From Gordonibacter urolithinfaciens (lineage in GTDB: Bacteria; Actinomycetota; Coriobacteriia; Coriobacteriales; Eggerthellaceae), in contig NZ_LT900217.1 in NCBI RefSeq assembly GCF_900199375.1, forward strand, positions 2,542,001 through 2,606,000: a stretch of 64,000 bases of DNA, written 5' to 3'. Made by a program: the position numbers and the translations under genes. Positions 18,970 to 46,962 of the stretch are shown here, in pieces (the first letter of the stretch is position 1; each line of letters starts with the position of its first letter). The notes under the pieces were generated by a model, which saw only the letters and a program-made list of their open reading frames with translations, made no database searches and had not been told where the DNA came from.

Positions 18970-19029
18970 TGATTCGCAAGGACGCGGCCGGCCTTTACGG
19001 CAAAACGGTCGCAGCCGACGCGATATCTG

Positions 19030-19205
19030 CCTCTTCCATCCGGACTTTAACCGTTGGTCCCGGAATCTCACCGGTGTCAGCCTGCCCGGGCGCGCTCGGC
19101 TGGGGCCGGCGTGCGCCGTCGCAGGGTCGCGGACTCTCGGCTTGGCGCGGCTTGCGCTGGCTGTCCGATTACCGCCAGTGAGGAATTTCACCTCGCCCTG
19201 AAACA
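19030..19205 (-). ncRNA. FMN riboswitch (RFN element)
   Basis: Read on the minus strand, the conserved RFN blocks are all present in order: AGGGCGAGGTGAAATTCCTC, then ACTGGCGGTAATC, CCGAGAGTCCGCGA, a GC-rich variable arm, CCGGTGAGATTCCGGGACC and AACGGTTAAAGTCCGGATGG. It lies 160-340 nt upstream of ribU and should lower expression of the riboflavin transporter operon when FMN is abundant. Confidence 0.95.
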
Positions 19206-19221
19206 GAATCCATCGCGGCCC

Positions 19222-31599: not shown

Positions 31600-31736
31600 A
31601 ATATGTGGTTTCGACGGCTCGGTGCATACCCGCCCAATTCGGCTTCCCTTTTCCTCTTCCGCACCCTATGCTGAAACGGAGAGGCTTATGCTCGATGCCT
31701 TGGGGACTGATCGCTTCTTCACACGGGAGGTTCATG

Positions 31737-33383
31737 ATGGCACTGCGACGCAACCGGCGGGGAGACGGCGCGGACGAGCGCGCATCCTGGAGCGACGGCG
31801 GGGCGACGGCGCCGGTGTCTGCGCATCCCATCGGTGCAGCGGCGGGCGAGGACGCCTCCGCGCGCATCGTTCCTGCGGCGCCCGCCGCCCCCGCGATGCC
31901 CGCCGCCGAGCCCGCGCCGCAGGCGGCCCCCGGCGCGACCGCCGCGCTCGCCGGCATCCCGCATGCTAACGTCCCCGGCTCAACCGACCCGTTGGGTCCC
32001 GCGGACCTGGTCGACGCCGAGGCGCTCGCCGACATGCGGGCGTTCAACGACCTCAAGGCGAAGCGCAAGAAGCAGCGCAAGCGCAAGATCATCATCGGCG
32101 TCGCATCGACCGTGGCGGTGCTCGCCGTCGCGGGCGGCGCGTTCGCATGGTACACGGCCGACCAGGCGGCCAAGGCGTTGCAGAACATGGCCCCGCAGAC
32201 CGGCTTCGTGGAGCAGGGCACCTTCGTCGAGACGGTGTCGGCCTCCGACAACCTGCAACCCGTCGCGTCGGTGAGCGCCACGCCCGAGGTGGACGGCATC
32301 GTGGGCGAGGTGCTCGTGGCCGAAGGCGATGCGGTGGAAGAGGGCCAGACACTGTTCACCGTGGTCAACGACGAATTGGACAAAGCGGTGAACCAGGCGG
32401 CCCAGGGGATCGAGGAGGCAAAGAACGGCGTGGCCCAAGCCCAGAACGCCGTGAACGACGCCTACCACGCCAAGTCCGCCGGCCAGCAGGCGGCCGCGAC
32501 CGCGCAAGCCCAAGCGCAAGCCGCCGCGGCGGCAGCCAAGGAGGCCGGGGGAGCTGCGGTCGAATCGTTCGCCGGCGAGCAGGCGTCCTTCGACGAGTCC
32601 AGCGCGGATTCCGCCATCAGGTCGGCCGAACTCGCCTTGAGCAACGCGAACCTCGCGCTGCAGAACGCGCAGAGCGCTTACGACGAGGCCGTCGCGCGCG
32701 CCGCCAAGCGCACGGTGACCGCCTCCATCGCCGGCAGCGTCGTCGCGGTGAACATCGAGCCCGGCAAGGCGCTCGGGGCCACGGCGAGCGCCGCGACCTC
32801 GCCCGTGCAGATCGCCGACCTGTCGCAGATGACCGTCTCCATCAACGTGAACGAGATCGACATCCTCAAGATCAGCGCCGACCAGACCGCCGAAGTCACG
32901 TTCACCGCCGCCCCCGACCTCACGCTGCCCGCCACCGTGGTGAGCATCGCCACCACGTCGGCCGGCTCCGGCGACCCGTCGGGCGGCGCCATGTACGGCG
33001 GCATGGGCGGCGCCGTCACGTACGCGGTGAAACTGCTCATCGCCGAGCCCGACCCGCGCCTCAAGCCCGGCATGACCGCCAAGGCCACCATCACCACGAC
33101 CACCATCGACAACGCGCTCATGGTGCCCATCTCGGCCGTGCAGTCCGACGGCGCGGGCGGCAGCTTCGTGATGGTGCTCACCGACCCCGAGACGCAGGAG
33201 ATGGACATGCGCGAGGTGGAGGTCGTCGCGTCGGACGGTCTCACGTCTGTCGTGAAGGGCCAGGTGAAGGCCGGCGACGAGGTGGTTGTGAGCGGAGGCG
33301 CGGGCGGCGCGCCGGGCGACATGGGCATGGAGGCCGGCGGCATGGCCGCGGCCGACTCCGCCGGCAGCGTCATGGTGGGGTAG
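31737..33383 (+). CDS. HlyD/MacA-like efflux adaptor (membrane fusion protein)
   Basis: A 548-residue protein. Residues 1-116 are a cytoplasmic Ala/Pro-rich region ending in a Lys/Arg cluster, followed by one membrane helix (117-139). The outside part has a biotinyl/lipoyl-like half (TPEVDGIVGEVLVAEGDAVE), a long Ala/Gln-rich coiled coil (about 215-315), the return half (IAGSVVAVNIEPGK) and a beta-barrel region. Near the end is a Gly/Met-rich tail. Two ATGs (31734 and 31737) follow GGGAGG; the second has the better spacing. It is first in an operon with a MacB-like ATPase and permease, so it is the extracytoplasmic adaptor of that export system. Confidence 0.85.
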   Translation: MALRRNRRGDGADERASWSDGGATAPVSAHPIGAAAGEDASARIVPAAPAAPAMPAAEPAPQAAPGATAALAGIPHANVPGSTDPLGPADLVDAEALADMRAFNDLKAKRKKQRKRKIIIGVASTVAVLAVAGGAFAWYTADQAAKALQNMAPQTGFVEQGTFVETVSASDNLQPVASVSATPEVDGIVGEVLVAEGDAVEEGQTLFTVVNDELDKAVNQAAQGIEEAKNGVAQAQNAVNDAYHAKSAGQQAAATAQAQAQAAAAAAKEAGGAAVESFAGEQASFDESSADSAIRSAELALSNANLALQNAQSAYDEAVARAAKRTVTASIAGSVVAVNIEPGKALGATASAATSPVQIADLSQMTVSINVNEIDILKISADQTAEVTFTAAPDLTLPATVVSIATTSAGSGDPSGGAMYGGMGGAVTYAVKLLIAEPDPRLKPGMTAKATITTTTIDNALMVPISAVQSDGAGGSFVMVLTDPETQEMDMREVEVVASDGLTSVVKGQVKAGDEVVVSGGAGGAPGDMGMEAGGMAAADSAGSVMVG

Positions 33384-33387
33384 CGTC

Positions 33388-34070
<683 letters not shown>

Positions 34071-34074
<4 letters not shown>

Positions 34075-35264
34075 GGATCGGAGACCTGTTCTACGAAACC
34101 TGGCACGCGCTGTCCGCGAACAAGGGCCGCTCGCTGCTCACCATCCTCGGCATCGTCATCGGCATCGCGGCCGTCATCGCCATGACCTCGCTCATCGCGG
34201 GCGTGCAGAACATGCTCATGGGCGAGATGGGGCTTTCCCAGGCGCGCCAGGTGTCCATCAGCGCCTACTCGCCGCAGGGCATCACGTTCGACGACCTGGA
34301 CAAGCTCGCGCAGGGCATGCCGGAGTACGAGGTCATCACCGGCGCGTCGTACGCATCGGCCGAGGTCTCGACGGCCGACGGGCAGAAGAACTACACGAGC
34401 ATCATCGGTGCCCGCCCCGAGTACTTCACGGCGAACGGGACGAAGCTCAAGGAGGGCCGCTTCTTCACCGAGAGCGAAGAGCAGAACGCCGCGCGGCTCG
34501 TGGTGATGGGCGGCTGCGAGATGGCCGTGCAGATGCTCGGCGTTCCCGACACCGAGGCGGTGGGCAAGACGGTGCGCCTCGGCAACGACGACTACACGGT
34601 GATCGGCGTGCTGGAGACATCGACGTTCATGGGCGGGGGCGGGACGTTCTACGCGCCCTACACCACGGTGGAGACGCGCATCGGCAATACCGGGGGCATC
34701 CAGCAGATCGTCGGCTTCGCGCGCGAGGGCACCGACATGGATCGTCTCGTCGAGACGACTCAAACCTTCGTGGCGCAATACTTCAACCTGGAGCCCGAAA
34801 ACGTGTACGTGTCGTCGCTCGATGCCGTCATCAAGCAGATGGAGACGATGATGACGTCGTTTTCGCTGCTCATGGGATCGGTAGCGTCGATCTCGCTGTT
34901 CGTGGGCGGCATCGGCATCATGAACATGATGCTGACGAACGTCACCGAGCGCATACGCGAGATAGGTCTGCGCAAGTCGCTCGGCGCGCGTCGTCGCGAC
35001 ATCACGAAGCAGTTCTTGCTCGAGGCCATCATGCTGTGCGTGGCCGGCGGCGCGTTCGGCATCGTGTTCGGCTTCTTGGCCGCGTGGGGCTTGGGCCAGG
35101 TGATCGGGGCGGTGCAGGCGGGCATGACCGTCACGCCGGTGCTCGCGCCGGGCGTGGTGTTCGGCGCCGTGGCCGTGTGCGTGCTCATCGGCGTCGTGTT
35201 CGGCTACTACCCGGCCCGCCGCGCCGCCAAGCTCGACCCGGTGGAGTCGCTGCGCTACCAGTAG
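34071..35264 (+). CDS. MacB-type ABC transporter permease (FtsX family)
   Basis: A 397-residue membrane protein with the four-helix FtsX/MacB arrangement. The first helix is at about residues 20-45 ([20 protein letters not shown]). A large extracytoplasmic MacB-PCD-like domain (about 45-260) follows, then three helices. The FtsX-domain signature is clear: [20 protein letters not shown] then [17 protein letters not shown]. It overlaps the ATPase gene by 4 bp. With the adaptor it forms a Gram-positive MacAB-like exporter; the substrate is unknown. I see no adjacent regulator or two-component system. Confidence 0.9.
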
Positions 35265-35357
35265 CGGAAGGAAAAGCTCGACCCGTTGCGTTCGGCAACG
35301 CGCGCCGCACCCCGGTGCGCCGCAAACGCAGGGCTGGAAGGCTTGGAAAGGGAGCAT

Positions 35358-36095
35358 ATGGAAAACGACGATCCGCGCAGCTGCGCCAACTGCGCCGTGC
35401 GGGCTTGCGACGACCGTAGCGCCGAGGGGGCCGCGCGGGCCTATCCCTCGTTCTGCCTGACGCAGCGCACGCCCGACGAGGAGTTCGAAGACGCGGCCGC
35501 CCTCTATCGGGACGACCCCGAGACGGCGCGCATCTTCCAAGCAGCCGCCGAGGTGGAGGGCCTCTTCTACAGCCAGCTCACGCGCGTGGAGGAGGTCATG
35601 GTGTTCGCCCGGCGCATAGGCGCGCGCAAGATCGGCATCGCCACGTGCATGGGGCTCATCGACGAGGCCCAGGCGTTCGCCCGCATCCTGCGCGCCAAGG
35701 GATTCGAAGACGTGTGCGCCGTGGCCTGCAAGGTAGGTGCCGTGGCGAAGGAGCGTGCGGGCATCGCCGACGACGTGAAGGTGCATCCCGGCTGCTTCGA
35801 ACCCACGTGCAACCCTATCATGCAGGCGCGCATCTTGAACGAAGCCGGCTGCGACCTGAACGTGATCGTGGGCCTGTGCGTGGGCCACGACACGCTGTTC
35901 ATGAAGCATGCGGAAGCTCCCGTGACCTACCTGGTGGTGAAGGACCGCGTGCTCGCCCACAACCCCGCAGCCGCGCTCTACACGAAGGGCTCGTACTACA
36001 AGCGCCTCCTGTCGCCCGACCTTCCCGAGCCGCGCCCGCGTGCAGGGAAGGAAGGCGGTACTCCGACGCCGGGGGACGCCGCCCAGGTCGAGTAG
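35358..36095 (+). CDS. DUF1847-family cysteine-rich protein
   Basis: A 245-residue protein with the DUF1847 pattern. The N-terminal [12 protein letters not shown] resembles a metal or iron-sulfur site. Then come [60 protein letters not shown] and [20 protein letters not shown]. Many conserved Cys residues suggest a metal-binding or redox enzyme; the family has no established function. The start at 35358 follows GAAAGGGAG; an upstream extension is hairpin-rich leader. It stands between the exporter and the cobalamin riboswitch and appears to be its own unit. Confidence 0.8.
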
Positions 36096-36225: not shown

Positions 36226-36231
36226 TAGAAT
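36226..36231 (+). promoter_or_regulatory. Extended -10 promoter of the cobalamin operon
   Basis: TGCTAGAAT (36223-36231) is an extended -10 (TGN plus TAGAAT) without an obvious -35. A start point near 36238 places the whole cobalamin aptamer in the leader. Confidence 0.5.
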
Positions 36232-36237
36232 GCGTCA

Positions 36238-36450
36238 GCAATAGAAATTGGCTAGGATGGAGCGCGCCGGGCGCGGCGCCGGGCCGCCGACGAGGCTGCC
36301 CGAGGGGAATGCGGGTGAGAATCCCGCGCTATACCAGTAACCGTAAACGCCGATGAGCGGAACCCGCGATGCCCCGCAGCATCGCCCGTCTCAGATGAGG
36401 CAAAGTCGGACTACCTGTCCATCACACCTCGAAGCCCTGGAAAGTGAGGT
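36238..36450 (+). ncRNA. Cobalamin riboswitch (divergent)
   Basis: The recognisable blocks are GGGGAATGCGGGTGAGAATC followed by CCGC, then ACCAGTAACCGTAAACGCC and AAAGTCGGACTACCTG, matching the B12-element core (GGGAA...GGTGAAAATCC, the CTGTAA block and AAGTCAGGA-ACCTG). The middle block departs from consensus (CTATACCAGTAACC), so it is a variant. Downstream, ACCTC (36426-36430) can pair with GAGGT (36446-36450), which overlaps the ribosome binding site of the next gene. That suggests control of translation by Shine-Dalgarno sequestration. It precedes a B12-uptake operon. Confidence 0.85.
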
Positions 36451-36454
36451 TCCG

Positions 36455-39400
36455 ATGACCATCGGTTCTCAATCTGCGCGCTCCGGTTCGGACGGTGCGG
36501 AACTACCCAAGAAACTACTCTCCCTGCTCATGGCTATGGTGCTGGCGTTCTCGCTCGTGCCGAGCGCCGCCTGGGCGGCGGACGCGGCCTCCGAGCCCTC
36601 CGCACCTGCCGGAGTCGCCGGGCGGGACGAAGCGCTCGAAGAGGAGCCGGCCGCCGTTCCAACGGAGGAGCCGGCGAATATCGCCCTGCCAGATGCGACC
36701 ACTCCCGATGAGGACGCCGAACCGGGCGCCCCCAGCGAGGGTGCCGAACCGGGCGCCTCTACCGAGCAGGCACTTGAGGAGGAGGCTGGCCGGCAGCAGC
36801 TCGACGAGGAGTCTGCCGGCACCCCGATTGGCGCGGAGGTCACTTCCGTTCCCGGGGCGTCGCCGTCCCTGCTCGCAGCCCCGGCTTCCCTCGATGGTGT
36901 GCGTATCAAGGCATCGGCGACAGCTGACCTGCCGAGCAAGATCGGCGTGGGACAATCGCTCTATGCTTGGGCGTTCATCGAAGAAGAGGACGACTGGGGC
37001 TGGGATACCGAAGAGGTGGAGATAGACGACTACACCGGTGCGACGTTCCAGTGGTATCGAGGTGCGAAGAAGGTAACCTATGCCTCCGGCACTTCTAGCT
37101 ATCGCGACTACGTCCTCATCGACGGAGCGACGTTCCAAACCTACCAGGCAAGTGAACCCGACCAGGGCTCTTACCTCGCAGTTAAAGTGACGCTGCCGGG
37201 AGGAAGCGAGTTCTGGTCGAAGGCCTCGACATCCCAGGTGACGGACGGCAAGACGAAGCTGGCATCGGTTGGGGTGGCCGGTAAGGCGAAGACGGGCCAG
37301 ACGCTCGTTGCCACGGCCTACGGCGAGCCGCAGTACAGTTGGCAAGACCCCGAACCGGTCACGGCTGGGGTGACATACCAGTGGCTGCGCAGCGCGGCCG
37401 AAGACGGCGAGTTCACCCTCATCGAGGACGCGACGGGTGCAGTTTACGAAGTGACGGCAGAGGATGCGGGCAGCTACCTGAAGGTGGTTGCCACCTCCTC
37501 GAATGCGGTTGAGGCTGCAGTCGGGCCCGTTGTTGCGGCAGGATCGCCGGAAAACGAGGCGCGCCTCGCCGCGGCCGTCGAGGCGCTGAAAAACGACGGC
37601 TTCAGCGGCTGGTGTCCCAACCCCGTGTACGGAAGCGATACCAACCTCAACGTCGTGATGGAGGCGGAGCTCGCAAAGCTTGGATTCTCCGATGTAACCT
37701 CGCAGGTTTCCTCGGCCACGTTCGAGAGTCCTGACCCCAAGCAGACCGGCGGTATCGATACGTCGAGCGGCTCCTCCAACGGCGACATCACGTACTTCTA
37801 TGTCTCCCCCGACGAGAAGGGCGCACTCGACTACAGCGTCATCCGCCGCCTCGACCTGGAGTTCTCGCTCGCCTGCGGCGATGCGTCCAATACCTACGCG
37901 CCGAGCAAGCCCACGGCGCTCGCATGGGACGAGGGCCGGGTCGAGCGCATGCTGGGGGAGAAGGCTGCATCCCTTGTGGTGGGCTTCGCCTTGGATGATG
38001 AGACCGACGCCGTCACGCAGAATCTGACGCTGCCGAACAAGCTGGAGGGGAAACCGTGGTCCGAGGTGTCGTGGACGTCGTCCGACCCCTCGGTGGTGAA
38101 AGTCAGCGGATACAGCTGGTCAAACTACACGGGCACGGTAGTGCGCAGCGCTGCCGACCGCACAGTGCAGCTGACAGCCGCCGTTGGTATCGTAACGTCC
38201 GGCGGCCCGGAGACGACTATCGAGAAGACGTTCGAAGTCACCGTGAAGGGCGACCCGGACAAGGTGGCGGCGGAGAGGGCGGCGCTCGAGCAGAAGGTGG
38301 GGGAGAACTTCACCTGCGACAGCATCACGCTGGCCGAGACGGGGGAGCCTGTCGGCGCGAGCGCGCTGACGGGCGACGTGAGCCTGCCGAAGCCGGCTAC
38401 GATCGGCGTAGACGGCAAGTACTACGAGGTGAAGTACACGGCCTCGACCGACGCGGTGGTGCCGAACGGGTGGGCCGGCAAGGTGTACCGCCCGCTGCCC
38501 GGCGAGGCTCCGGCGCAGGTGGATATCACGCTTACCGTGACCGACAAGGCGAACGCCGAGATCAGCGCCTCCAAGACGCTCTCGTTCACGGTTTCCCCCA
38601 TGGATCAGGCCGACCTCGACCGCGAGGCCGCGCTCATGGAGCAGGCCGTGGTCGGCTATGCCGCCGCGCTTGCGAAAGGCCAGGACGCCGGCGCGGTCAC
38701 GGGCGACCTGCACGCGTTCCAGAAGGCGTACCTCGACGCGGACGGCAATCTGGCCTGGGCGTACGACCATGAGGCGGCCGACGCTGCGGGCAGCGGCATC
38801 GTGCCGGTGGACCTCGAGGGCTACGATCCCCTGGGCTCGGCCGGCTGGCGCCTGTTCAAGTCGAGCAACCCCTCTGTCGTGTCCCATGAGAACCTGCTGG
38901 TGACCCAGCCCGCATACAGCGCGAAAGTCACCGTCGAGTCGCGCCTGGCCAGCGAGAAGTACGCGCGCTATGCGGAGCGCTATCCGGACGACCCCGTCTT
39001 CCAGAAGCTGGCCGGACGCACCGTGGCCGCCGAGTTCACGGTCGAGGGCACGAGCGGGCAGGAGGACCCCTACGTCACGGCCACGTGCTCGGTGATCGGC
39101 ATGGACAAGGACGGCGCGGCGCAGACCTGGGCGGCGGCCGAGCCGTACACGCTCGACGCGGGAGCCACGGTGGCCGATCTGGCCGAGGCGCTGTTCGCGA
39201 GAACCGGGATGACGGCTGACTTCGGCATCGGCGCATGGGGATGGTCGCTCAACTCCATCACCTCGCCTTTCGACGCCGGGCTGACGCTCAAGTGGGGCAC
39301 GTTCCAGGGCTTGGGCTGGATGTTCTACGTGAACGGCCAGGACCTCGGCGAGGGAGCGGACAAGTGCGTGCTCCAGCCGGGCGACCGCGTCATCTGGCGT

Positions 39401-41998
39401 TACGGCGCCTGGGATGACCCGGCTCCCACCGACAAGCTGTCGGTGACGTGCGAGGTCATCGGCGCGGACGCCGACGGGGCCGCGCAGACGTGGGCCTCCG
39501 CGACGTCGTTCGCCCTGGACGAGGGCGCGACGGCCGCCGACCTCTCCGAGGCGCTGTTCGAGCAGGCGGGTCTGTCCGCCCAGACGGGTGTGGGCCAATA
39601 CGGCTGGTTCCTCGATTCCATCGCCTCACCGTACACCGGCGAGCAATTGGGAAGCGTCGAGACGTCCCCGGGCGTGTGGTCGTACTGGCAGCTGTTCGTG
39701 AACGGGGAGCTGGCGAAGGTAGGCGCCGGAGGCCACGTGCTCGAGGCGGGAGACGAGGTTGTCTGGTGCTATGGCTCTGACGGCACGCTGCCTGGCCAGG
39801 TGGCGGCCTCCTGCGAGATCGTCGGCCTCGACGCGAACGGCAACGCGCAGCGGTGGGCCGCCCCCGCAACCTATACGATGGTGGAAGGCGCCACGGCGGC
39901 CGATCTCACGGAGCAGGTGTTCGCAGCACAGCGCATCGAGGCGGACTACGATCCCAACGGTACGTACGGCTGGTTCCTCGACTCCATCACCTCGCCTTTC
40001 GATCCGTCGCTCACGCTGGCGATGGAATCCGCACCCCCGTACCGTTACTGGCAGCTCTTCGTGAACGGCAAGCCCACGGATTTTGGCGCTGGCTTGATCG
40101 TGCTGCAACCGGGCGACGAGGTATCGTGGTTCTACTCCGAATACGGTGCGAGCCTTCCCGACCTGGACGCCGTCGTCACCGACCCCGATGCCCCGCGTCC
40201 AAGCTACGATGCCGCCTGGCCCGGCTTCGGCGGGGACGGCGCGGTGGAAGCGCCCACGCCCACGCAATCGGCGGAGCAGGCGTGGTCCTACGATTTCCGC
40301 GAGGGCGCGAGCGGCGACGTGGGCGTGTCGGAGCCGCTTATCGTGAACGGTGACGTGTACCTCGTGGTGAACGGGGAGCTGCGGGTGATCGACGCGGCCA
40401 CCGGGACGGTCAAGAAGAACCGCGACGGGAGGGAGCTGCGCGCGAACGTCGGGGGAAGGAGCGCCTACTGCAACCGTCCGGTCTACACGGAGGGCGTGGT
40501 CATCGTTCCGTCCGATGACGGGAGCCTCGCCGCCTTCACGGCCGACGAGCTAGTGTGCGTGTGGAAGACGAAGCCGCTCGAGGCGGACGGCGCGCAGGGC
40601 TACCAGTCGCTCTCGTCGCTGACGGTGAATGGATCGTACGTGTTTGCCGCCTTCACGACGGTCGGCGCCGGCAGCGTGGGCACGGGCGGCGTGCGCCTGT
40701 GCGTGGACGTGCGCGACGGATCGGTGAGGTGGCTGCAGCGGGACGAGCCGGCCGAGCAGGGCGGCGCGGCCGGCTACTACTGGGCCGGCGCCGCCGTGTC
40801 GGGGGCCGACCTCGTCGTGGGCAACGACGCGGGGCTCGTGCAGCTGGTGGACGGCGAGACGGGCGCGGTGAAGGCGACGGTCGACGTGGGCGCCCCGATC
40901 CGCGCGGGCGTCGTCGCCCTTCCCGAGACGGCGCGGGCCGGCGCGGGCGACCGGTTCGCCGTGGTGTCGAGCGACGGCGTGCTGCATCTCGTCGCCCGCG
41001 AGGGCGACCATCTGGCCGAGGCGGGTTCCGTGAGGTTCGCCGGCAAGTCCACCTCCACGCCGGCCGTGTCGGGTGGCAAGGCGTTCGTATGCGGTGCCGA
41101 CGACCAGGGGTACGGCACGCTCTCGGTCATCGACCTGGCGTCGCTTTCCGTGGAGCGCACGGTGCGCGGCGGAAAGGGCGAGGCGCAGTCGTCACCGCTC
41201 GTGTCGGTGCAGGGCGACGGCACGTACGCGTACTTCACCTGCAACGGGTTGCCCGGCGGGGTGTACGGCTACCGGCTGGGCGATGAGGCGGCCTACACGC
41301 TGTTCACGCCTGACGCCGGCGAGCAGAACTACTGCTTCGCTTCCGTCGTGGCCGACGGCGCTGGCAACCTGTACTATACGAACGACGCGGGCCGGCTGTT
41401 CGCCCTGAAGGGGCTGGACGGCGTGCGGGTGACGTTCGACGCGCAGGGCGGCTCGTTCGTGCCGTCGGTCTTCGTGGCGCTGGGCAAGCCGGTGCTGCGC
41501 CCGTCCGATCCGGTGCGCAGCGGTTACACGTTCGCGGGCTGGTTCTCCGACGAGGCGTGCACGGCGGCGTGGGACTTCGCGACGCCGGTCGGGTCGGCTC
41601 TCACGCTGTACGCCAAGTGGGAGAAGCAATCGGGCCAGCAGGAAGGTTCGACGGATGGCGAGACCTCGTCGGGCGGGGCACCCGGCCAACGCACGCCGCT
41701 CGGCGGTGCGCCGGCGGCCGCGCATGCCCCGCTTGTGCAGGAGGCCACCGCCAAGGCGGAGGAGAAGGCAGACGCGGGAGCGGCGAAGGCGTCGACGCGC
41801 GCCGGGGCCTCGTCGGCTGCGGGAGGCTTCGCTGCCGACGACGGACCCTCGACGCCCGGCGTGCCCGGCGGCGTGAACCCGTGGGCCGTCGGGGGCATCG
41901 CCGTGGGCGCCGCCGGCTTGGCGGGCGCCGTCGCGTACGCCGTGCTGGGACGCCGGAGGGTGAGCGCTTCCGCGCCGCAGGGGAAGGGAAGGAGCTAG
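36455..41998 (+). CDS. Large cell-surface protein with three transcobalamin-like DUF4430 domains and a beta-propeller
   Basis: An 1847-residue exported protein. It has a signal peptide (1-41, ending PSAAWA), an acidic Ala/Pro/Glu linker, Ig-like units (about 150-375) and atrophied bacterial Ig-like units (to about 870). Three tandem DUF4430 (transcobalamin C-terminal-like) domains follow at about 872-990, 993-1110 and 1115-1235. Each has the pattern AQ.W, YGWFLDSI.SP, YWQLFVNG and L..GDEV.W.Y. Next come PQQ-like propeller repeats (about 1275-1660), one Listeria-Bacteroides repeat (1658-1723, YTFAGWFSDEACT...LYAKWEK), an Ala-rich stalk, a membrane helix (about 1808-1834) and a basic tail. No LPxTG is present, so it is membrane-anchored. 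Under a cobalamin riboswitch and followed by an ECF importer, it most likely captures cobalamin. The start follows GTGAGGT. Confidence 0.85.
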   Translation: MTIGSQSARSGSDGAELPKKLLSLLMAMVLAFSLVPSAAWAADAASEPSAPAGVAGRDEALEEEPAAVPTEEPANIALPDATTPDEDAEPGAPSEGAEPGASTEQALEEEAGRQQLDEESAGTPIGAEVTSVPGASPSLLAAPASLDGVRIKASATADLPSKIGVGQSLYAWAFIEEEDDWGWDTEEVEIDDYTGATFQWYRGAKKVTYASGTSSYRDYVLIDGATFQTYQASEPDQGSYLAVKVTLPGGSEFWSKASTSQVTDGKTKLASVGVAGKAKTGQTLVATAYGEPQYSWQDPEPVTAGVTYQWLRSAAEDGEFTLIEDATGAVYEVTAEDAGSYLKVVATSSNAVEAAVGPVVAAGSPENEARLAAAVEALKNDGFSGWCPNPVYGSDTNLNVVMEAELAKLGFSDVTSQVSSATFESPDPKQTGGIDTSSGSSNGDITYFYVSPDEKGALDYSVIRRLDLEFSLACGDASNTYAPSKPTALAWDEGRVERMLGEKAASLVVGFALDDETDAVTQNLTLPNKLEGKPWSEVSWTSSDPSVVKVSGYSWSNYTGTVVRSAADRTVQLTAAVGIVTSGGPETTIEKTFEVTVKGDPDKVAAERAALEQKVGENFTCDSITLAETGEPVGASALTGDVSLPKPATIGVDGKYYEVKYTASTDAVVPNGWAGKVYRPLPGEAPAQVDITLTVTDKANAEISASKTLSFTVSPMDQADLDREAALMEQAVVGYAAALAKGQDAGAVTGDLHAFQKAYLDADGNLAWAYDHEAADAAGSGIVPVDLEGYDPLGSAGWRLFKSSNPSVVSHENLLVTQPAYSAKVTVESRLASEKYARYAERYPDDPVFQKLAGRTVAAEFTVEGTSGQEDPYVTATCSVIGMDKDGAAQTWAAAEPYTLDAGATVADLAEALFARTGMTADFGIGAWGWSLNSITSPFDAGLTLKWGTFQGLGWMFYVNGQDLGEGADKCVLQPGDRVIWRYGAWDDPAPTDKLSVTCEVIGADADGAAQTWASATSFALDEGATAADLSEALFEQAGLSAQTGVGQYGWFLDSIASPYTGEQLGSVETSPGVWSYWQLFVNGELAKVGAGGHVLEAGDEVVWCYGSDGTLPGQVAASCEIVGLDANGNAQRWAAPATYTMVEGATAADLTEQVFAAQRIEADYDPNGTYGWFLDSITSPFDPSLTLAMESAPPYRYWQLFVNGKPTDFGAGLIVLQPGDEVSWFYSEYGASLPDLDAVVTDPDAPRPSYDAAWPGFGGDGAVEAPTPTQSAEQAWSYDFREGASGDVGVSEPLIVNGDVYLVVNGELRVIDAATGTVKKNRDGRELRANVGGRSAYCNRPVYTEGVVIVPSDDGSLAAFTADELVCVWKTKPLEADGAQGYQSLSSLTVNGSYVFAAFTTVGAGSVGTGGVRLCVDVRDGSVRWLQRDEPAEQGGAAGYYWAGAAVSGADLVVGNDAGLVQLVDGETGAVKATVDVGAPIRAGVVALPETARAGAGDRFAVVSSDGVLHLVAREGDHLAEAGSVRFAGKSTSTPAVSGGKAFVCGADDQGYGTLSVIDLASLSVERTVRGGKGEAQSSPLVSVQGDGTYAYFTCNGLPGGVYGYRLGDEAAYTLFTPDAGEQNYCFASVVADGAGNLYYTNDAGRLFALKGLDGVRVTFDAQGGSFVPSVFVALGKPVLRPSDPVRSGYTFAGWFSDEACTAAWDFATPVGSALTLYAKWEKQSGQQEGSTDGETSSGGAPGQRTPLGGAPAAAHAPLVQEATAKAEEKADAGAAKASTRAGASSAAGGFAADDGPSTPGVPGGVNPWAVGGIAVGAAGLAGAVAYAVLGRRRVSASAPQGKGRS

Positions 41999-42000
41999 CC

Positions 42001-42894
42001 ATGGCCGAAGACAGGAAGCCGGACGACCGCATTGCCCCGCGAGCCCCGCGCACGGCGGGCGAGGCGGCTGCGCCCCTTGAGGTGCGGGACGATAAGCCCC
42101 TCGCCCATAGCGGCGAAGCGGAGGAGGCGGCTCCTCCGCGCGAGGATGAGGCTGTGCGCCCCTGCCTCGATGGCGCCGGCGAGCACGCTGCCGAGGCCCC
42201 GCGGGCGAAGCGCGCCCCGCTGAGCGCTGCGCAGAAGGTGGGCGTCGGCGTGGCGGCCGCGCTCTCCGTCGCCCTCATCGCCGTGTCGGCGTACTTCGTC
42301 GCCGCTCCGGCGGTCGAGGGGTCCCAGGCCGGCGACCTGCTCGCCACCACGCAGGAGGCTGGCCTTGCGGACCAGGCGGACGAGCCTGCCGCTGCGGACG
42401 AGCAGCAGCAGGCGGAGGAGCAGGATGGGGCGGACGGAGCAGACGGGGCAACGGCCGGAGACTCCGCAGGTGCGGACGCGTCGGCACCTGCAGCCGGTGC
42501 GCCCGCGCCGCTGCCCAACGGCGCGGCGGGCGACGGAGCGGCGTCGGAAGGCTCCGCATCCGCCTCGTCGAGCGCATCCGCGCGGCCGGCCACCGTAACC
42601 GTGAGCGTGACCGTGGACTCGTCGGCCGCCGACGGGCGCGTGTCGGGCGGCGCCAACCCCACGTTCGAGCAGGGCGCCACCGTCTACGATGCGCTCATGG
42701 CATGCGGCCTATCCGTCAATGCGTCCAGCACGCCGCTCGGTATCTACGTCAACGCCATCGGAGGTTTGGCGGAGAAGGAGTACCCCGGCGAGAGCGGGTG
42801 GAAGTATTCCGTCAACGGCGAGGTTATCATGAGGTCCTGCGACAGCGTCGTTTTGCAGGACGGCGACGTCGTGCTCTGGTTCTACGCTCGATAG
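42001..42894 (+). CDS. Membrane-tethered DUF4430 (transcobalamin-like) protein
   Basis: A 297-residue protein with a cytoplasmic N-terminus (1-78, charged), one membrane helix (about 79-102), an acidic Gln/Ala/Ser linker (103-195) and a single DUF4430 domain (about 196-297). The domain shows TVTVSVTVDSS, TVYDALMACGLSVNASST, GIYVNAIGGL, GWKYSVNGEV and LQDGDVVLWFYAR. There is no cleavable signal or lipobox, so it is a type II membrane protein with its domain outside. AAGGAG precedes the ATG, 2 bp after the large surface protein. It precedes EcfT, so it could pass cobalamin from the large protein to the ECF S subunit. Confidence 0.85.
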   Translation: MAEDRKPDDRIAPRAPRTAGEAAAPLEVRDDKPLAHSGEAEEAAPPREDEAVRPCLDGAGEHAAEAPRAKRAPLSAAQKVGVGVAAALSVALIAVSAYFVAAPAVEGSQAGDLLATTQEAGLADQADEPAAADEQQQAEEQDGADGADGATAGDSAGADASAPAAGAPAPLPNGAAGDGAASEGSASASSSASARPATVTVSVTVDSSAADGRVSGGANPTFEQGATVYDALMACGLSVNASSTPLGIYVNAIGGLAEKEYPGESGWKYSVNGEVIMRSCDSVVLQDGDVVLWFYAR

Positions 42895-42909
42895 GAAGGG
42901 GGTGCGGCG

Positions 42910-43791
42910 ATGCTCGGCAGCGGGGGCGCGAAGCCCACGGCGTTCGACCGGTACCACCCGGCAGTGGCGTTTGGCTACTTCGCCTGCGTGCTCGCGTTCG
43001 GCATGGCGGCGATGCAGCCGGTCTACCTCGCCCTCTCGCTCGCGGCGGCGCTCTCGTACAGCATCGTTTTGCGGGGCGTGCGCGCCACGCTGCGCACGGC
43101 GCTGTGGCAGATGCCGCTCATCCTGGTGATGGCGGTGGCGAACCCGCTGTTCTCGGCCATGGGCTCCACGGAGCTCTTCCGCATCGGCCTGCGGGCGTTC
43201 TACCTGGAGAGCCTGGTGTTCGGCGCCTGCATGGGCGCCATGTTGGTGTGCGTGCTGCTGTGGTTCTCGAACGCCTCGCGCGTGCTCTCGTCGGACAAAG
43301 TAATGGCGCTGTTCGGCAACGCGGCCCCCACGATCGGCCTCATGCTGTCCATGGCGATGCGCCTCGTGCCCCAGTTCATGCGCCGGGGCGCCACGGTGGG
43401 CGATGTGCAGCGGGCTTGCACGTCCGCACGCGCCACGGGGCTGCGCGAGGGTGCGCGCTCGCAGCTGCGCCTGACGTCCGTGCTGATGGGATGGGGAATG
43501 GAAGATTCGCTCGAAACGGCCGACGCCATGCGCGCGCGCGGGTGGGGCGCCCGCGCGCGTCGCACGACCTACCGTCGCTGCCGCTTCCGCGCCCGCGACG
43601 GCGCGGCGCTCGGCGTGCTGGCGGCGCTCGCGGCGCTGAACGCCGCGCTCGCGTACGCCGCCTGCACGCAGTTCCACTTCTACCCCACGTTGAGCGCGCT
43701 CACGGTGTGGTGGGGCTACGTTCCCTTTGCCGTGCTGGCGTTCGCGCCGCTCGCGCTCGAGGCGAGGGAGCGTGCGCGATGGACGCGGTGA
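42910..43791 (+). CDS. ecfT: ECF transporter transmembrane subunit EcfT (cobalamin system)
   Basis: A 293-residue membrane protein with about six helices. The coupling-helix signatures are recognisable: QRACTSARATGLREGARSQL and ADAMRARGWGARARR, the Ala-Arg-Gly motifs that contact the ATPases. The N-terminal FDRYHPAVAF is typical of EcfT in group I systems. It starts 15 bp after the DUF4430 gene and overlaps the fused ATPase gene by 13 bp. Sequence is quite different from the riboflavin-system EcfT in this window, so the two ECF systems are separate sets, not a shared module. Confidence 0.88.
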   Translation: MLGSGGAKPTAFDRYHPAVAFGYFACVLAFGMAAMQPVYLALSLAAALSYSIVLRGVRATLRTALWQMPLILVMAVANPLFSAMGSTELFRIGLRAFYLESLVFGACMGAMLVCVLLWFSNASRVLSSDKVMALFGNAAPTIGLMLSMAMRLVPQFMRRGATVGDVQRACTSARATGLREGARSQLRLTSVLMGWGMEDSLETADAMRARGWGARARRTTYRRCRFRARDGAALGVLAALAALNAALAYAACTQFHFYPTLSALTVWWGYVPFAVLAFAPLALEARERARWTR

Positions 43792-45533
43792 GGGCGCAGG
43801 GCTTCGCGTTCACCTACCCCGATGCGCCGGCGCGCACGTTCGGCCCGCTCGACTGGCGGGTTGCGCAGGGGTCGTTCACGTTGCTCGTGGGTGCCACCGG
43901 CTGCGGCAAGACCACGCTTCTGCGCTGCCTCAAGCCCGCGCTCGCGCCGACGGGCGCCCAGGAGGGCCGCTTGGAGGTGCTGGGCCGCGAGCCGGCCGCG
44001 TTCGACGCCGCCGACGGCGCCGCGCAGGTGGGCTATGTCGCCCAGAACCCGGAGAACCAGCTGGTGTGCGACACGGTGTGGCACGAGCTGGCGTTCGCGC
44101 TGGAGAACATCGGCCTCGACCAGAACGCCATGCGCCGGCGCGTCGCCGAGGTCGCGCACTTCTTCGGCATCGAGCCGTGGTTCCGCGCGTCCGTGGCCGA
44201 CCTGTCGGGCGGCCAGCAGCAGATGGTGAACCTGGCGGCCGTGCTGGCGTGCCAACCGCGGCTGCTCGTGCTCGACGAGCCCACGGCGCAGCTCGACCCG
44301 GTGGCCGAGAAGAACTTCCTGCATGCGCTCTTCCGCGTGAACCGCGAGCTGGGCATCACCGTCGTCATGGCAACCCACGCCCCCGAGGCCACCGCCCCCT
44401 ACGCCACCGACCTCGTGGAGCTGGCGAACGGCCAGGTGCGCCCGGTTGCCGTTCCCTGCGCGACGGCAGATGCACCCGCACCCGGCCCCGCGTCCGCCTT
44501 CGGCCCTGCATCCGCGATCCCCTCCCCACGCGTCGAGGGCGCGTCAGGTGGGTCCGAGAATCCTCTTCTCGACGTGGAGGCGGCGCCCCGCCCGATCCGC
44601 GAGGTGTCCTCCGCCCGCCCGATCCGCGAGGTGTCTCCCGCCGCAACTCGCGAGGCGCCTCCCGTCCTCTCCTTCCGCGACGCGCACTTCCGCTACTCCC
44701 GCGAGGCCGGTTGGGTGGTGCGCGGCCTGGACCTGGACGTGCGTATGGGCGATGTCCACGCCGTCGTGGGAGGCAACGGCTGCGGCAAGTCAACGTTGCT
44801 GCGCCTTGCGGCCGGCGTTCTCCGCCCCGAGCGCGGGCGCGTGGCCAATCGTCTGGCCGCCCGCCAAGCGCTGCTGCCGCAGAACCCGAAGGCGCTGTTC
44901 GTGTGCGATACGGTGGCCGAGGAGCTGCGCGAGTGGCAGCGCGGCTGCGGCTACGGAGACGATGCGGTGGATGCGGCGCTCGGGCGCTTCTCGCTCGCGG
45001 CGCATGCCGCGCGGCATCCCTACGACCTGTCGGGCGGCCAGCAGCAGCTGCTCGCCTTCGCGAAGATCCTGCTCACCGACCCCGACCTGCTGCTGCTCGA
45101 CGAGCCCACCAAGGGCCTCGACACGCCCACGAAACGCGCGCTGGCCGATGCGGTGCGTTCCTGCGCCCGCTCCGGGGCCACCGTCGTGCTCGTGACCCAC
45201 GACCTGGCGTTCGCCGCCCGCGTGGCCGACCGCGCCACCATGCTGTTCGACGGCGAGGCCGCCTGCACGGAACCTGCCGAGGAGTTCTTCGCGGGCAACC
45301 TGTTCTACCGCCCGGTACCTGATGCGTTCTTCCGCACCTGGCGCGCCGGGGCGGGGGAGCCGCGGGCCGACGACGGCCCGGACGGCGGGAGCAGCGCTCC
45401 TTCCCGCCCCGGCCCCCTTGTCTCTTCGGGCGGAGGCCTGCGCACCTCCTTGGAGGGCGAACCTCTGCCCGCTGCGGGGGCGGGCGCGTCGGGGGCTCAC
45501 ACGCTCGATCCCAATGACGGGACGGCCCGATGA
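43779..45533 (+). CDS. ecfA: Fused ECF ATPase (two EcfA domains) of the cobalamin system
   Basis: A 584-residue two-domain ATPase. Domain 1 has Walker A GATGCGKTT (38-46), signature LSGGQQQ (from 142), LDEPTAQLDP (165-174) and His200. Domain 2 has GGNGCGKST (331-339), LSGGQQQ (from 417) and DEPTKGLD (441-448). The linker (about 222-295) is Ala/Pro-rich and contains a short tandem repeat of (R)PIREVS. The C-terminus is a disordered Gly/Ala/Pro tail. The ATG at 43779 lies inside the end of ecfT and the stop overlaps the next start as ATGA, so T, A and S are tightly coupled. Confidence 0.9.
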   Translation: MDAVRAQGFAFTYPDAPARTFGPLDWRVAQGSFTLLVGATGCGKTTLLRCLKPALAPTGAQEGRLEVLGREPAAFDAADGAAQVGYVAQNPENQLVCDTVWHELAFALENIGLDQNAMRRRVAEVAHFFGIEPWFRASVADLSGGQQQMVNLAAVLACQPRLLVLDEPTAQLDPVAEKNFLHALFRVNRELGITVVMATHAPEATAPYATDLVELANGQVRPVAVPCATADAPAPGPASAFGPASAIPSPRVEGASGGSENPLLDVEAAPRPIREVSSARPIREVSPAATREAPPVLSFRDAHFRYSREAGWVVRGLDLDVRMGDVHAVVGGNGCGKSTLLRLAAGVLRPERGRVANRLAARQALLPQNPKALFVCDTVAEELREWQRGCGYGDDAVDAALGRFSLAAHAARHPYDLSGGQQQLLAFAKILLTDPDLLLLDEPTKGLDTPTKRALADAVRSCARSGATVVLVTHDLAFAARVADRATMLFDGEAACTEPAEEFFAGNLFYRPVPDAFFRTWRAGAGEPRADDGPDGGSSAPSRPGPLVSSGGGLRTSLEGEPLPAAGAGASGAHTLDPNDGTAR

Positions 45534-46237
45534 GCGCCGCCAAGGTGCTGCGCGCGTTGGAGGTGCCCGCGCTCTTGGCAGTGCCGCTCGTGCTGGCCGC
45601 GTGCGCCTATCTCAACCTCGACCAGAGCGCGCTGCTCACCGTGGCCACGGCGCTTACGGCAGTGGGGGTGTTCTTCGCCGCCTTCGAGACCTCGCGTCCC
45701 TCCTTGCGGCAGGTCATGCCCACGGTGGTGCTCGCCGCCCTCGCGGCGGCCGGCCGCATGCTGTTCGCGCCCATCCCCGACTTCAAGCCGGTGTCGGCTA
45801 TCTGCATCCTGGCGGGCGCGGTGTTCGGGCGGAGCAGCGGCTTCATGGTGGGCGCGCTCGCCGCGCTCGTGTCGAACTTCTTCTTCGGGCAGGGGCCGTG
45901 GACGCCCTGGCAGATGTACGCCTGGGGGCTCGTCGGCTACCTGGCCGGCGTGCTGGCCGACCGCGGCTGGCTCGACCGCACGCCGGCGCTGCTCGCGTTC
46001 GGCTTCTCGTCGGCGCTTTTGTACGGCCTGCTGCTGAACGGCTGGAACGCCATCGGCTTCGTCCACCCGCTCACGCTACCCGCCGTCCTCGTGTCCTTCG
46101 GCGCCGCGCTGCCGTTCGACCTCATGCACGGTGCGGCAACGGTGGCGTTCCTCGCCGCCCTGTACCTGCCTTGGAAGAAGAAGCTCGAGCGCATCAAGAA
46201 GAAGTACGCGCTGGTGCCCGACGGCGGCGCGCAGTGA
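45530..46237 (+). CDS. ECF transporter S subunit, probable cobalamin-specific (CbrT-like)
   Basis: A 235-residue membrane protein with about six helices: an N-terminal helix pair, then VLAALAAAGRMLFAPIPDFK, PVSAICILAGAVFGRSSGFM, NFFFGQGPWTPWQMYAWGLV and LLLNGWNAIGF. GRMLFAPIPDFKPV and the GxGPWTPWQM loop are typical of ECF S components annotated as cobalamin transporters (CbrT-like). Specificity is inferred mainly from the upstream B12 riboswitch and the DUF4430 proteins in the operon. It ends with a Lys-rich cytoplasmic tail. Last gene of the five-gene operon, 4-bp overlap with the ATPase. Confidence 0.82.
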   Translation: MSAAKVLRALEVPALLAVPLVLAACAYLNLDQSALLTVATALTAVGVFFAAFETSRPSLRQVMPTVVLAALAAAGRMLFAPIPDFKPVSAICILAGAVFGRSSGFMVGALAALVSNFFFGQGPWTPWQMYAWGLVGYLAGVLADRGWLDRTPALLAFGFSSALLYGLLLNGWNAIGFVHPLTLPAVLVSFGAALPFDLMHGAATVAFLAALYLPWKKKLERIKKKYALVPDGGAQ

Positions 46238-46359: not shown

Positions 46360-46962
46360 ATGCGAACCAGTACGATCGACCAGGCGGCCCGCGCCCTCAG
46401 GCAGGGCGAGGCGGTCATCTTCCCGACCGAGACGGTGTACGGCTTGGGGGTCTCCGTGCGCGCTGCGACAGGCCCCGACGTGCTTTACGACCTGAAGGAG
46501 CGCGACCGCGGCAAGCCCATCTCCTGGCTGGTGGGAGGCGCGGACGACCTCGACCGCTACGGCGCGCGCGTTCCCGCGCTCGCGCGCAAGCTGGCGGGCG
46601 CGTACTGGCCCGGCCCGCTCACCCTCGTCGTGCATGCCTCCGACGAGGTGCCCGAGTCGTTCCGCTCGGACGCGGGCACCATCGGCCTGCGCATGCCCGA
46701 CAACGCCACGGCGCTCGCGCTCGTCCGCGCCGCCGGATGCCCTCTGGCCACCACGTCGGCGAACCTCTCGGGCCGTGCGGCCGCCGGCGCCCTCGATGCC
46801 CTCGACCCCGAACTTGCCGCACGCGTCGGCACGATCGTGCCCGACGAGGCCGACGGCGCCTCGAGCGGCGTGGCCTCCACCGTGCTCGACTGCACGCAGG
46901 ACCCCCTTGCAATCGTGCGCGAGGGCGCCGTGACCCTCGCAGATATCCTCGCCCTCGCCTAG
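46360..46962 (+). CDS. Threonylcarbamoyl-AMP synthase (Sua5/YrdC/TsaC family)
   Basis: A 200-residue YrdC-domain enzyme that makes L-threonylcarbamoyl-AMP from threonine, bicarbonate and ATP for the t6A37 modification of ANN-decoding tRNAs. Seen motifs are AVIFPTETVYGLGVSV, DLKERDRGKPISWLV (the Lys/Arg-rich ATP site), YWPGPLTLVV, IGLRMPDNATAL and LATTSANLSG. There is no C-terminal Sua5 domain, so it is the short TsaC/YrdC type. In Bacillus-type synteny the equivalent gene (ywlC) lies near rpiB, glyA, upp and the atp operon, as it does here. Confidence 0.9.
   Translation: MRTSTIDQAARALRQGEAVIFPTETVYGLGVSVRAATGPDVLYDLKERDRGKPISWLVGGADDLDRYGARVPALARKLAGAYWPGPLTLVVHASDEVPESFRSDAGTIGLRMPDNATALALVRAAGCPLATTSANLSGRAAAGALDALDPELAARVGTIVPDEADGASSGVASTVLDCTQDPLAIVREGAVTLADILALA

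Follow-up and report, generated by a model that had tools for sequence, protein, structure and literature searches.

Genes and features of the operon

The window analysed here is a 64,000-nucleotide stretch of the Gordonibacter urolithinfaciens genome (contig NZ_LT900217.1), a single contig of 3.29 Mb. On its forward strand, between positions 36293 and 46237, an adenosylcobalamin (AdoCbl) riboswitch is followed by genes for a large surface protein, a small membrane-anchored protein and the components of an energy-coupling factor (ECF) importer. Both surface proteins carry DUF4430 domains, and all four DUF4430 matches of the genome lie inside this operon, as a genome-wide search shows. The features are listed in window coordinates, with the basis of each call in brackets (HMM, hidden Markov model; AF2, AlphaFold2 model; ORF, open reading frame).

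36293-36382, plus strand: AdoCbl-II (RF01689) riboswitch aptamer (Rfam cmscan; conservation in family genomes)
36455-41998, plus strand: large surface protein, 1847 aa (ORF, Pfam, NCBIfam; signal peptide and anchor by eye)
37961-38248, plus strand: best aBig_2 (atrophied Ig) stretch of two in the large protein (Pfam PF20578)
39161-39406, plus strand: DUF4430 domain 1, large protein (HMM, AF2)
39524-39775, plus strand: DUF4430 domain 2, large protein, YWQLFVN motif (HMM, AF2, VIA-align)
39887-40138, plus strand: DUF4430 domain 3, large protein, YWQLFVN motif (HMM, AF2)
40178-41422, plus strand: BamB/YxaL-type (PQQ-like) beta-propeller (AF2, Foldseek, VIA-align)
41429-41617, plus strand: Listeria-Bacteroides (InlB B-type) repeat, Flg_new (Pfam PF09479, TIGR02543)
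41870-41995, plus strand: C-terminal hydrophobic anchor with basic tail (read from the translation)
42001-42894, plus strand: small membrane-anchored DUF4430 protein, 297 aa (ORF, Pfam)
42238-42306, plus strand: single hydrophobic (signal-anchor) stretch of the small protein, N-terminal (by eye)
42673-42888, plus strand: DUF4430 domain 4, C-terminal in the small protein, SGW-type motif (Pfam, HMM)
42910-43791, plus strand: EcfT transmembrane coupling subunit (phmmer to 4hzu_T)
43779-45533, plus strand: fused EcfA-A′ double ATPase, 584 aa (Pfam, NCBIfam, motifs by eye)
45530-46237, plus strand: CbrT-like S subunit, 235 aa (phmmer and profile match to 6fnp_A)

The junctions, computed from the coordinates, are in order a 2-base gap, a 15-base gap, a 13-base overlap and a 4-base overlap. 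A preliminary description of this DNA had proposed a cobalamin riboswitch at the head of the operon, a 1847-residue surface protein with three DUF4430 domains, a membrane-tethered protein with one, and EcfT, fused EcfA-A and S genes, with gaps or overlaps of 2-16 bp between them, and each of these points holds. Pfam finds the three DUF4430 stretches, the 297-residue protein has one hydrophobic stretch by eye and a C-terminal DUF4430 domain, and the importer genes match the EcfT of 4hzu, two ATP-binding cassette (ABC) halves and the CbrT chain 6fnp_A. The earlier account of the large protein was correct in its three DUF4430 domains and missed the beta-propeller: the protein consists of a signal peptide, an Ig-like/aBig_2 region, three DUF4430 domains, the propeller, an InlB-type repeat and a C-terminal hydrophobic anchor, in which no LPxTG motif is seen by eye.

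With RF01689 (AdoCbl-II) the riboswitch scores 36.8 bits, over the gathering score of 36.5 by a narrow margin. It is the single RF01689 match in the whole genome, where a search with RF00174 gave no match. Assigning AdoCbl-II at high confidence on the Rfam score alone was rejected, the margin being too thin, and a family-wide survey was made instead. RF01689 matches occur in 86 of 138 genomes of the family to which Gordonibacter belongs and in 36 of 48 genera, 35 of the 138 genomes being over the cut-off, and this conservation backs the riboswitch call despite the borderline score. The segment AAGTCGGACTACCTG, 3′ of the Rfam match at about 36403-36417, resembles what we take to be the typical 3′ segment of cobalamin aptamers, so the aptamer probably extends beyond the match to about 36417. 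An alternative upstream ATG at 36353 falls within the riboswitch, and the ATG at 36455 was taken as the start of the large protein. The fold of the leader RNA has an uninformative z score of -1.29. Scanning for promoters and terminators gave 2 terminator-like sites, against a mean of 4.1 in shuffles, and no promoter was found. By homology, the element would bind AdoCbl and repress the genes that follow it.

Relatives and folds of the encoded proteins

A single-sequence phmmer search of the S subunit against solved chains places CbrT (6fnp_A) at the top with an E-value of 1.8e-8, the second S chain following at 0.048. With a profile of 29 S sequences, 6fnp_A is matched at 4.1e-18, the next solved chain at 4.3e-5 and the riboflavin S chain 3p5n at 0.61. 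In a second genome of the genus, the S protein is 92% identical to that of the window. EcfT is divergent; it has no Pfam match at E 0.1 and matches the EcfT chain 4hzu_T at 7.7e-5 in phmmer. The EcfA-A′ protein contains two Pfam ABC_tran stretches, with a P-loop and LSGGQ in each half by eye, and matches TIGR04520 (ECF ATPase) at 2.8e-79, below that family's whole-protein cut-off. With an S subunit nearest to CbrT, an EcfT and two ATPase halves, the importer is by homology a putative CbrT-type ECF set.

Transport of cobalamin and cobinamide has been demonstrated for ECF-CbrT of Lactobacillus delbrueckii (PMC5997447). Its S subunit is homologous to that of the window over about 170 residues, and EcfT and two ATPase halves are present on both sides. 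In L. delbrueckii, cbrT belongs to an nrdJ-cbrS-cbrT-pduO cluster in which cbrS adjoins cbrT (PMC5997447), whereas in the window T, fused A-A′ and S form what looks like a dedicated set, encoded behind a cobalamin riboswitch and alongside the DUF4430/propeller proteins of the surface.

Import of some other substrate such as riboflavin, with the B12 riboswitch acting as indirect regulation, would agree with the Pfam label of the S subunit, ECF-ribofla_trS, which is over its cut-off (43.3 bits against 26.7), and with weak NCBIfam matches to riboflavin and folate S components, which are below cut-off. However, no other solved chain comes close to CbrT as a relative of the S subunit, the homologous operons follow riboswitches of two families that share a clan and a ligand type, and the flavin mononucleotide (FMN) riboswitch that the window does contain lies away from this operon. 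Given the CbrT profile match and the riboswitches, riboflavin or some other vitamin was rejected as the substrate, and we regard such an import function as highly improbable. The FMN riboswitch itself (88.3 bits, 19024-19209, minus strand) marks a separate flavin-regulated locus of the window.

For the DUF4430 domains, a profile was built from 50 domains of the window and 35 other loci. Against all Protein Data Bank sequences (E up to 10, 11 rows), its top match is transcobalamin-1 at 6.9e-5, followed by 3u7z at 0.0017, the transcobalamin-2 beta domain at 0.014 and a ThiS protein at 0.026; full-length transcobalamin-2 (0.18) and intrinsic factor (0.24) come later. A [YF]W motif of the YWQLFVN type is present in 14 of these 50 domains and SGW in 29; the other 7 have neither. 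The [YF]W counterparts in transcobalamin (TC) and haptocorrin (HC) are FWQLL and YWELL, so that two DUF4430 domains of the window share [YF]W[QE]L with these animal proteins.

The AF2 model of the three tandem domains, built with 13 sequences, has a pLDDT (predicted local distance difference test) of 89.7 and a predicted template-modelling score (pTM) of 0.64. Foldseek with this model returns transcobalamin as the top match (E 1.7e-4), and the cyanocobalamin-bound TC beta domain is matched with a TM of 0.76 by target length; the ubiquitin-like domains of USP7 have similar E-values and a low TM. In VIA-align, rows 1-14 are all haptocorrin, intrinsic factor (IF) or TC, with Z scores of 12.0-14.4 over 100-107 residues at a root-mean-square deviation (rmsd) of 1.8-2.5, and the alignment covers the middle domain of the model (DUF4430 domain 2). 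The gut DUF4430 structure 3u7z follows at Z 11.4, and unrelated beta-grasp folds reach 8.6 or less. As predicted by the preliminary description, which had placed DUF4430 close to the C-terminal domain of transcobalamin and intrinsic factor, the model thus points to the beta-domain fold that TC, HC and IF (5np4, 4kki, 2pmv) would share with the window, at Z 12-14 over about 100 residues. The 3u7z protein, Ruminococcus gnavus RUMGNA_00854, represents the same domain as the DUF4430 of the window; its entry is titled 'putative metal binding protein', a title that does not establish function.

Unlike the animal proteins, neither surface protein of the window gives a Pfam match to an alpha/alpha-toroid up to E 0.1, while some clostridial operons do encode toroid-DUF4430 proteins. 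According to the literature on animal binders, short teleost Tcn-like sequences consist of a DUF4430 domain. The human TC beta domain alone has been crystallised with cyanocobalamin, and extensive washing is needed to strip the cobalamin bound to it (PMC5599065); a single beta domain can therefore hold a corrin.

The propeller was matched by Pfam below the cut-off of its family. The AF2 model of the residues C-terminal to the third DUF4430 domain has a pLDDT of 94.1 and a pTM of 0.93, and its closest natural folds in VIA-align are Bacillus YxaL (Z 40.2, rmsd 2.1, 338 residues) and E. coli BamB (Z about 35); designed eight-bladed propellers are also among the best matches in both Foldseek and VIA-align. 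The titles of the YxaL and BamB entries give other roles, plant growth promotion and outer-membrane assembly. BtuG is absent among the 50 matches listed by each program, which does not amount to an exclusion.

A propeller profile seeded from loci linked to the S gene was searched over whole genomes, and at E 1e-10 or below it gave 44 matches in 43 of the 138 family genomes. As many as 42 of these have a DUF4430, riboswitch or S match on their own strand no more than 15 kb away; by neighbour, 40 are near DUF4430, 37 near a riboswitch, 34 near S and 29 near all three. This near-confinement, together with the full-length alignment of the Gordonibacter propeller with those of three clostridial loci (L120, L137 and L153) at 36-37% identity, is what would be expected if the propeller alone bound B12 and the DUF4430 domains were coupling or spacer modules only. 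Three S loci of Collinsella and Enorma (L103:6180-7277, L099:5676-6404 and L127:5964-6689) also fit this idea, as they keep a distant propeller-like protein (46-72 bits) without a local DUF4430. Against it, many genomes have DUF4430 without a detectable propeller (DUF4430 in 103 and the propeller in 43 of the 138), and the entry titles of the nearest folds, BamB and YxaL, do not call them B12 binders; we judge a propeller-only binder to be unlikely.

Linkage of DUF4430, riboswitches and CbrT-like genes

Among the 138 family genomes, 103 contain DUF4430 and 110 the S subunit. The linkage count used 140 of at least 150 DUF4430 rows, ten rows for further domains being excluded and the best row of each genome kept, and 111 of 120 listed S rows, covering 109 of the 110 genomes; on the S side, one weak row, the second pieces of split hits and a lone contig-edge fragment of genome G071 were excluded. 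Judged by its best DUF4430, a genome has S on the same strand no more than 15 kb away in 76 of the 103 cases, a riboswitch in 69 and either in 92. S is never on the opposite strand at this distance (0 of 103), and in 72 of the 76 it is 2.25-3.07 kb downstream, a range in which chance would place it in less than 1% of genomes (by arithmetic, one S gene per about 2.4 Mb). Genome G005 has its large and small DUF4430 genes apart from S and from each other, with an AdoCbl-II match of its own 0.3 kb ahead of the small and 3 kb ahead of the large gene, which provides an independent sign of B12 control. From the side of the riboswitch, 23 of 105 AdoCbl-II matches (in G088, G090, G091, G092 and others) have, on their own strand and up to 15 kb away, no DUF4430 or S row used in the count.

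GTDB genomes were also scanned with the S profile, and the best 80 of at least 533 loci, several of them clipped by contig ends, were evaluated. DUF4430 is present in 49 of the 80, always on the strand of S, and in 48 of these 49 it ends no more than 600 bases before EcfT; a propeller is found in 35 of the 80, counting the three weak ones (L099, L103 and L127). Relatives of the operon occur in Gordonibacter, Eggerthella, Slackia, Olsenella and Clostridia. In the clostridial loci L120, L137 and L153 the order is propeller protein, DUF4430 protein, T, AA′ and S, behind an RF00174 riboswitch of 77-82 bits.

In the clostridial order of Ca. Soleaferrea, 176 of 245 genomes have DUF4430 and 155 have RF00174. 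Among the 150 matches listed for each, 56 RF00174 elements come from genomes for which a DUF4430 is listed too; 33 of them have a DUF4430 on their strand up to 8 kb downstream, 3 have one upstream and none has one on the opposite strand. Conversely, 36 of 52 DUF4430 rows from genomes with a listed riboswitch have a listed RF00174 within 8 kb upstream. Sixteen loci of this order were selected, not at random, because they had a DUF4430 or riboswitch hit, and 11 of these contain an S homologue. DUF4430 is thus linked with B12 riboswitches and with CbrT-like genes in two phyla. The preliminary description had suggested looking for just such neighbours, which are found in 92 of the 103 family genomes and again in the clostridial order. 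The pattern it had named as contrary, homologous operons in which the riboswitch is consistently of another type and the S subunit is not one for B12, was not seen in the loci examined; several loci showed no riboswitch. Short DUF4430 frames (152-261 aa) in L167, L172 and L173 begin their domain about 0.25-0.32 kb behind RF00174, with no S homologue in the stretch fetched.

The alpha domain of TC is an alpha/alpha-toroid. Five of the clostridial loci (L159-L162 and L170) encode a frame of 554-632 aa with an N-terminal alpha/alpha-toroid and a C-terminal DUF4430, followed by T, AA and S. One prenyltransferase/squalene-cyclase-type Pfam family is over its cut-off in each, and two hydrophobic stretches separate toroid from DUF4430 by eye. 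In L158 (2940-4976, minus strand) the DUF4430 comes first and is followed by a toroid match below cut-off. A strong RF00174 match precedes the start of this DUF4430 by about 0.3 kb, and no S homologue lies in the 6 kb covered at this locus. Full-length TC homology by sequence was rejected for the clostridial toroids, as the profile matches squalene cyclases and prenyltransferases and not TC; the 'transcobalamin architecture' of these proteins therefore rests on Pfam fold families only.

Ig-like and InlB-type repeats are typical of adhesins, and both are present in the large protein of the window. They would suit a role in which the ECF set imports cobamides while the large DUF4430 protein captures B12 bound to haptocorrin or IF, or a microbial B12-carrier complex, or mediates adhesion; its TC-like fold would then serve protein contacts and not a grip on the corrin. 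DUF4430 is also part of the broad beta-grasp group, and in L166 (9046-14037, minus strand) a 1664-aa S-layer-domain protein combines Big_2 with one DUF4430, another surface anchor for the domain, though this gene too sits behind RF00174 riboswitches, between them and small DUF4430-T-AA-S genes. A carrier or adhesin role has to contend with L061, L064 and L066, in which the riboswitch is followed directly by a small DUF4430 gene and then by T-AA-S, without a gene for a large partner, and with a fold that is nearest to B12-holding domains, well above other beta-grasp folds. We judge such a role to be unlikely, about as unlikely as a propeller-only binder.

The genomic setting is consistent with a need for cobamide import. 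Two proteins with B12-binding domains are matched in the Gordonibacter genome, and no corrin-ring CbiL is over the cut-off (best 44 bits against 163); as CbiL is a single marker, auxotrophy is not thereby proven. Four Peripla_BP_2 matches, which may include BtuF-type proteins, are also present. Directly 5′ of the operon (31605-36095) lie HlyD/MacB-like ABC genes, so named by eye, and a DUF1847 gene, with no sign of membership. The gene 3′ of it, starting near 46360, presumably encodes a YrdC/Sua5-like protein and was left out of the operon.

Probable surface capture and import of cobamides

Taken together, the gene set, the riboswitch homology, the affinity of S to CbrT, the modelled DUF4430 fold and the linkage across genera and phyla make it probable that the operon provides surface capture of cobamides that feeds a dedicated CbrT-type ECF importer and is repressed by B12. 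When intracellular AdoCbl is low, the riboswitch would permit expression. The C-terminally anchored 1847-aa protein would project its three DUF4430 domains and propeller outward to capture cobamides, the propeller perhaps forming a second face of the cobamide site beside DUF4430. The short anchored DUF4430 protein, whose gene immediately precedes T in almost every locus with both, may pass the cobamide to the CbrT-type S subunit, and the EcfT/EcfA-A′ motor together with S would drive import, until AdoCbl shuts the operon off. Cobamide binding by DUF4430, the propeller or both, the order of hand-over, and repression are the steps that we infer.

Several observations weigh against this reading. 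The riboswitch of the window barely exceeds its threshold, and the S subunit carries the riboflavin label noted above. DUF4430 matches are also found in the control genomes Lactococcus lactis and Methanosarcina acetivorans, so DUF4430 by itself is no proof of B12. In 11 of the 103 family genomes the best DUF4430 has neither S nor a riboswitch nearby (4 of these 11 are no more than 1.1 kb from the start of a contig), and 16 of the 52 listed clostridial-order rows lack a listed riboswitch within 8 kb upstream. No DUF4430 was found in 31 of the 80 S loci. A riboswitch model (R1), trained on the window's family and holding only 8 pairs because MAFFT aligned the 3′ part of the riboswitch poorly, finds a riboswitch in 18 of the 80, none of them titled Olsenella, Atopobiaceae or Collinsella; in the seven loci searched with Rfam, Olsenella L096, Tractidigestivibacter L111, Enorma L099 and Collinsella L103 gave no cobalamin riboswitch. 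The Collinsella S loci are without DUF4430, which the four Collinsella genomes searched (those of L103, L117, L127 and L131) all have elsewhere; a large DUF4430-propeller protein is encoded at two of three such places (L155-L157), and an S homologue at none of them. Finally, no binding data for DUF4430 proteins of this type were found in the literature searched.

The capture-and-import reading can be set beside known systems. The gene rtpR encodes a B12-dependent reductase. In Lacticaseibacillus rhamnosus, the DUF4430 protein LGG_02295 adjoins rtpR, and a table in the same paper annotates an 'Additional lipoprotein component of putative cobalamin ECF transporter', which may or may not denote LGG_02295 (PMC9963975). 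The idea of a small surface protein partnering a cobalamin ECF transporter is shared with this case, which is an annotation only, and the excerpts of PMC9963975 mention no protein with three DUF4430 domains and a propeller. Those parts of the Gram-positive capture proposed in the preliminary description that were put to the test gave the predicted results. A related idea, a lipoprotein partner of a cobalamin ECF transporter, is already an annotation in lactobacilli, and the operon with its propeller and three DUF4430 domains would be a variant of it. No transcobalamin-like proteins with bacterial ECF transporters turned up in searches of the open literature, judged by the titles and opening lines of abstracts among the papers listed. 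The Bacteroides BtuB/BtuG/BtuH/BtuJ systems likewise have surface proteins beside a B12 transporter (PMC10404256, PMC6143338, PMC8941943, PMC12751083), and regulation by a riboswitch is mentioned in excerpts on the Btu system of B. thetaiotaomicron; unlike the window, these systems are Gram-negative and TonB-dependent, with different binding folds.

A more specific version, which we put forward tentatively and consider possible though not favoured, is that these proteins are bacterial transcobalamins in two phyla, in which DUF4430 would close over a cobamide held on a second domain and deliver it to a CbrT-type ECF transporter. Some Clostridia would use a toroid as the second domain, like animals; in Coriobacteriia and other Clostridia a BamB-like propeller would take its place. 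If this is true, bacteria would have a counterpart of the intrinsic factor/transcobalamin architecture of animals, whether through common descent or because it was assembled more than once.

As far as we have seen, surface capture of scarce cobamides by Gram-positive gut bacteria is little described next to the Btu systems of Bacteroides. The operon names candidate binding domains, a propeller partner, an importer and a switch, with which such capture becomes testable. If the capture reading is true, it would give DUF4430 a function and tie this domain to the B12 carriers of animals.

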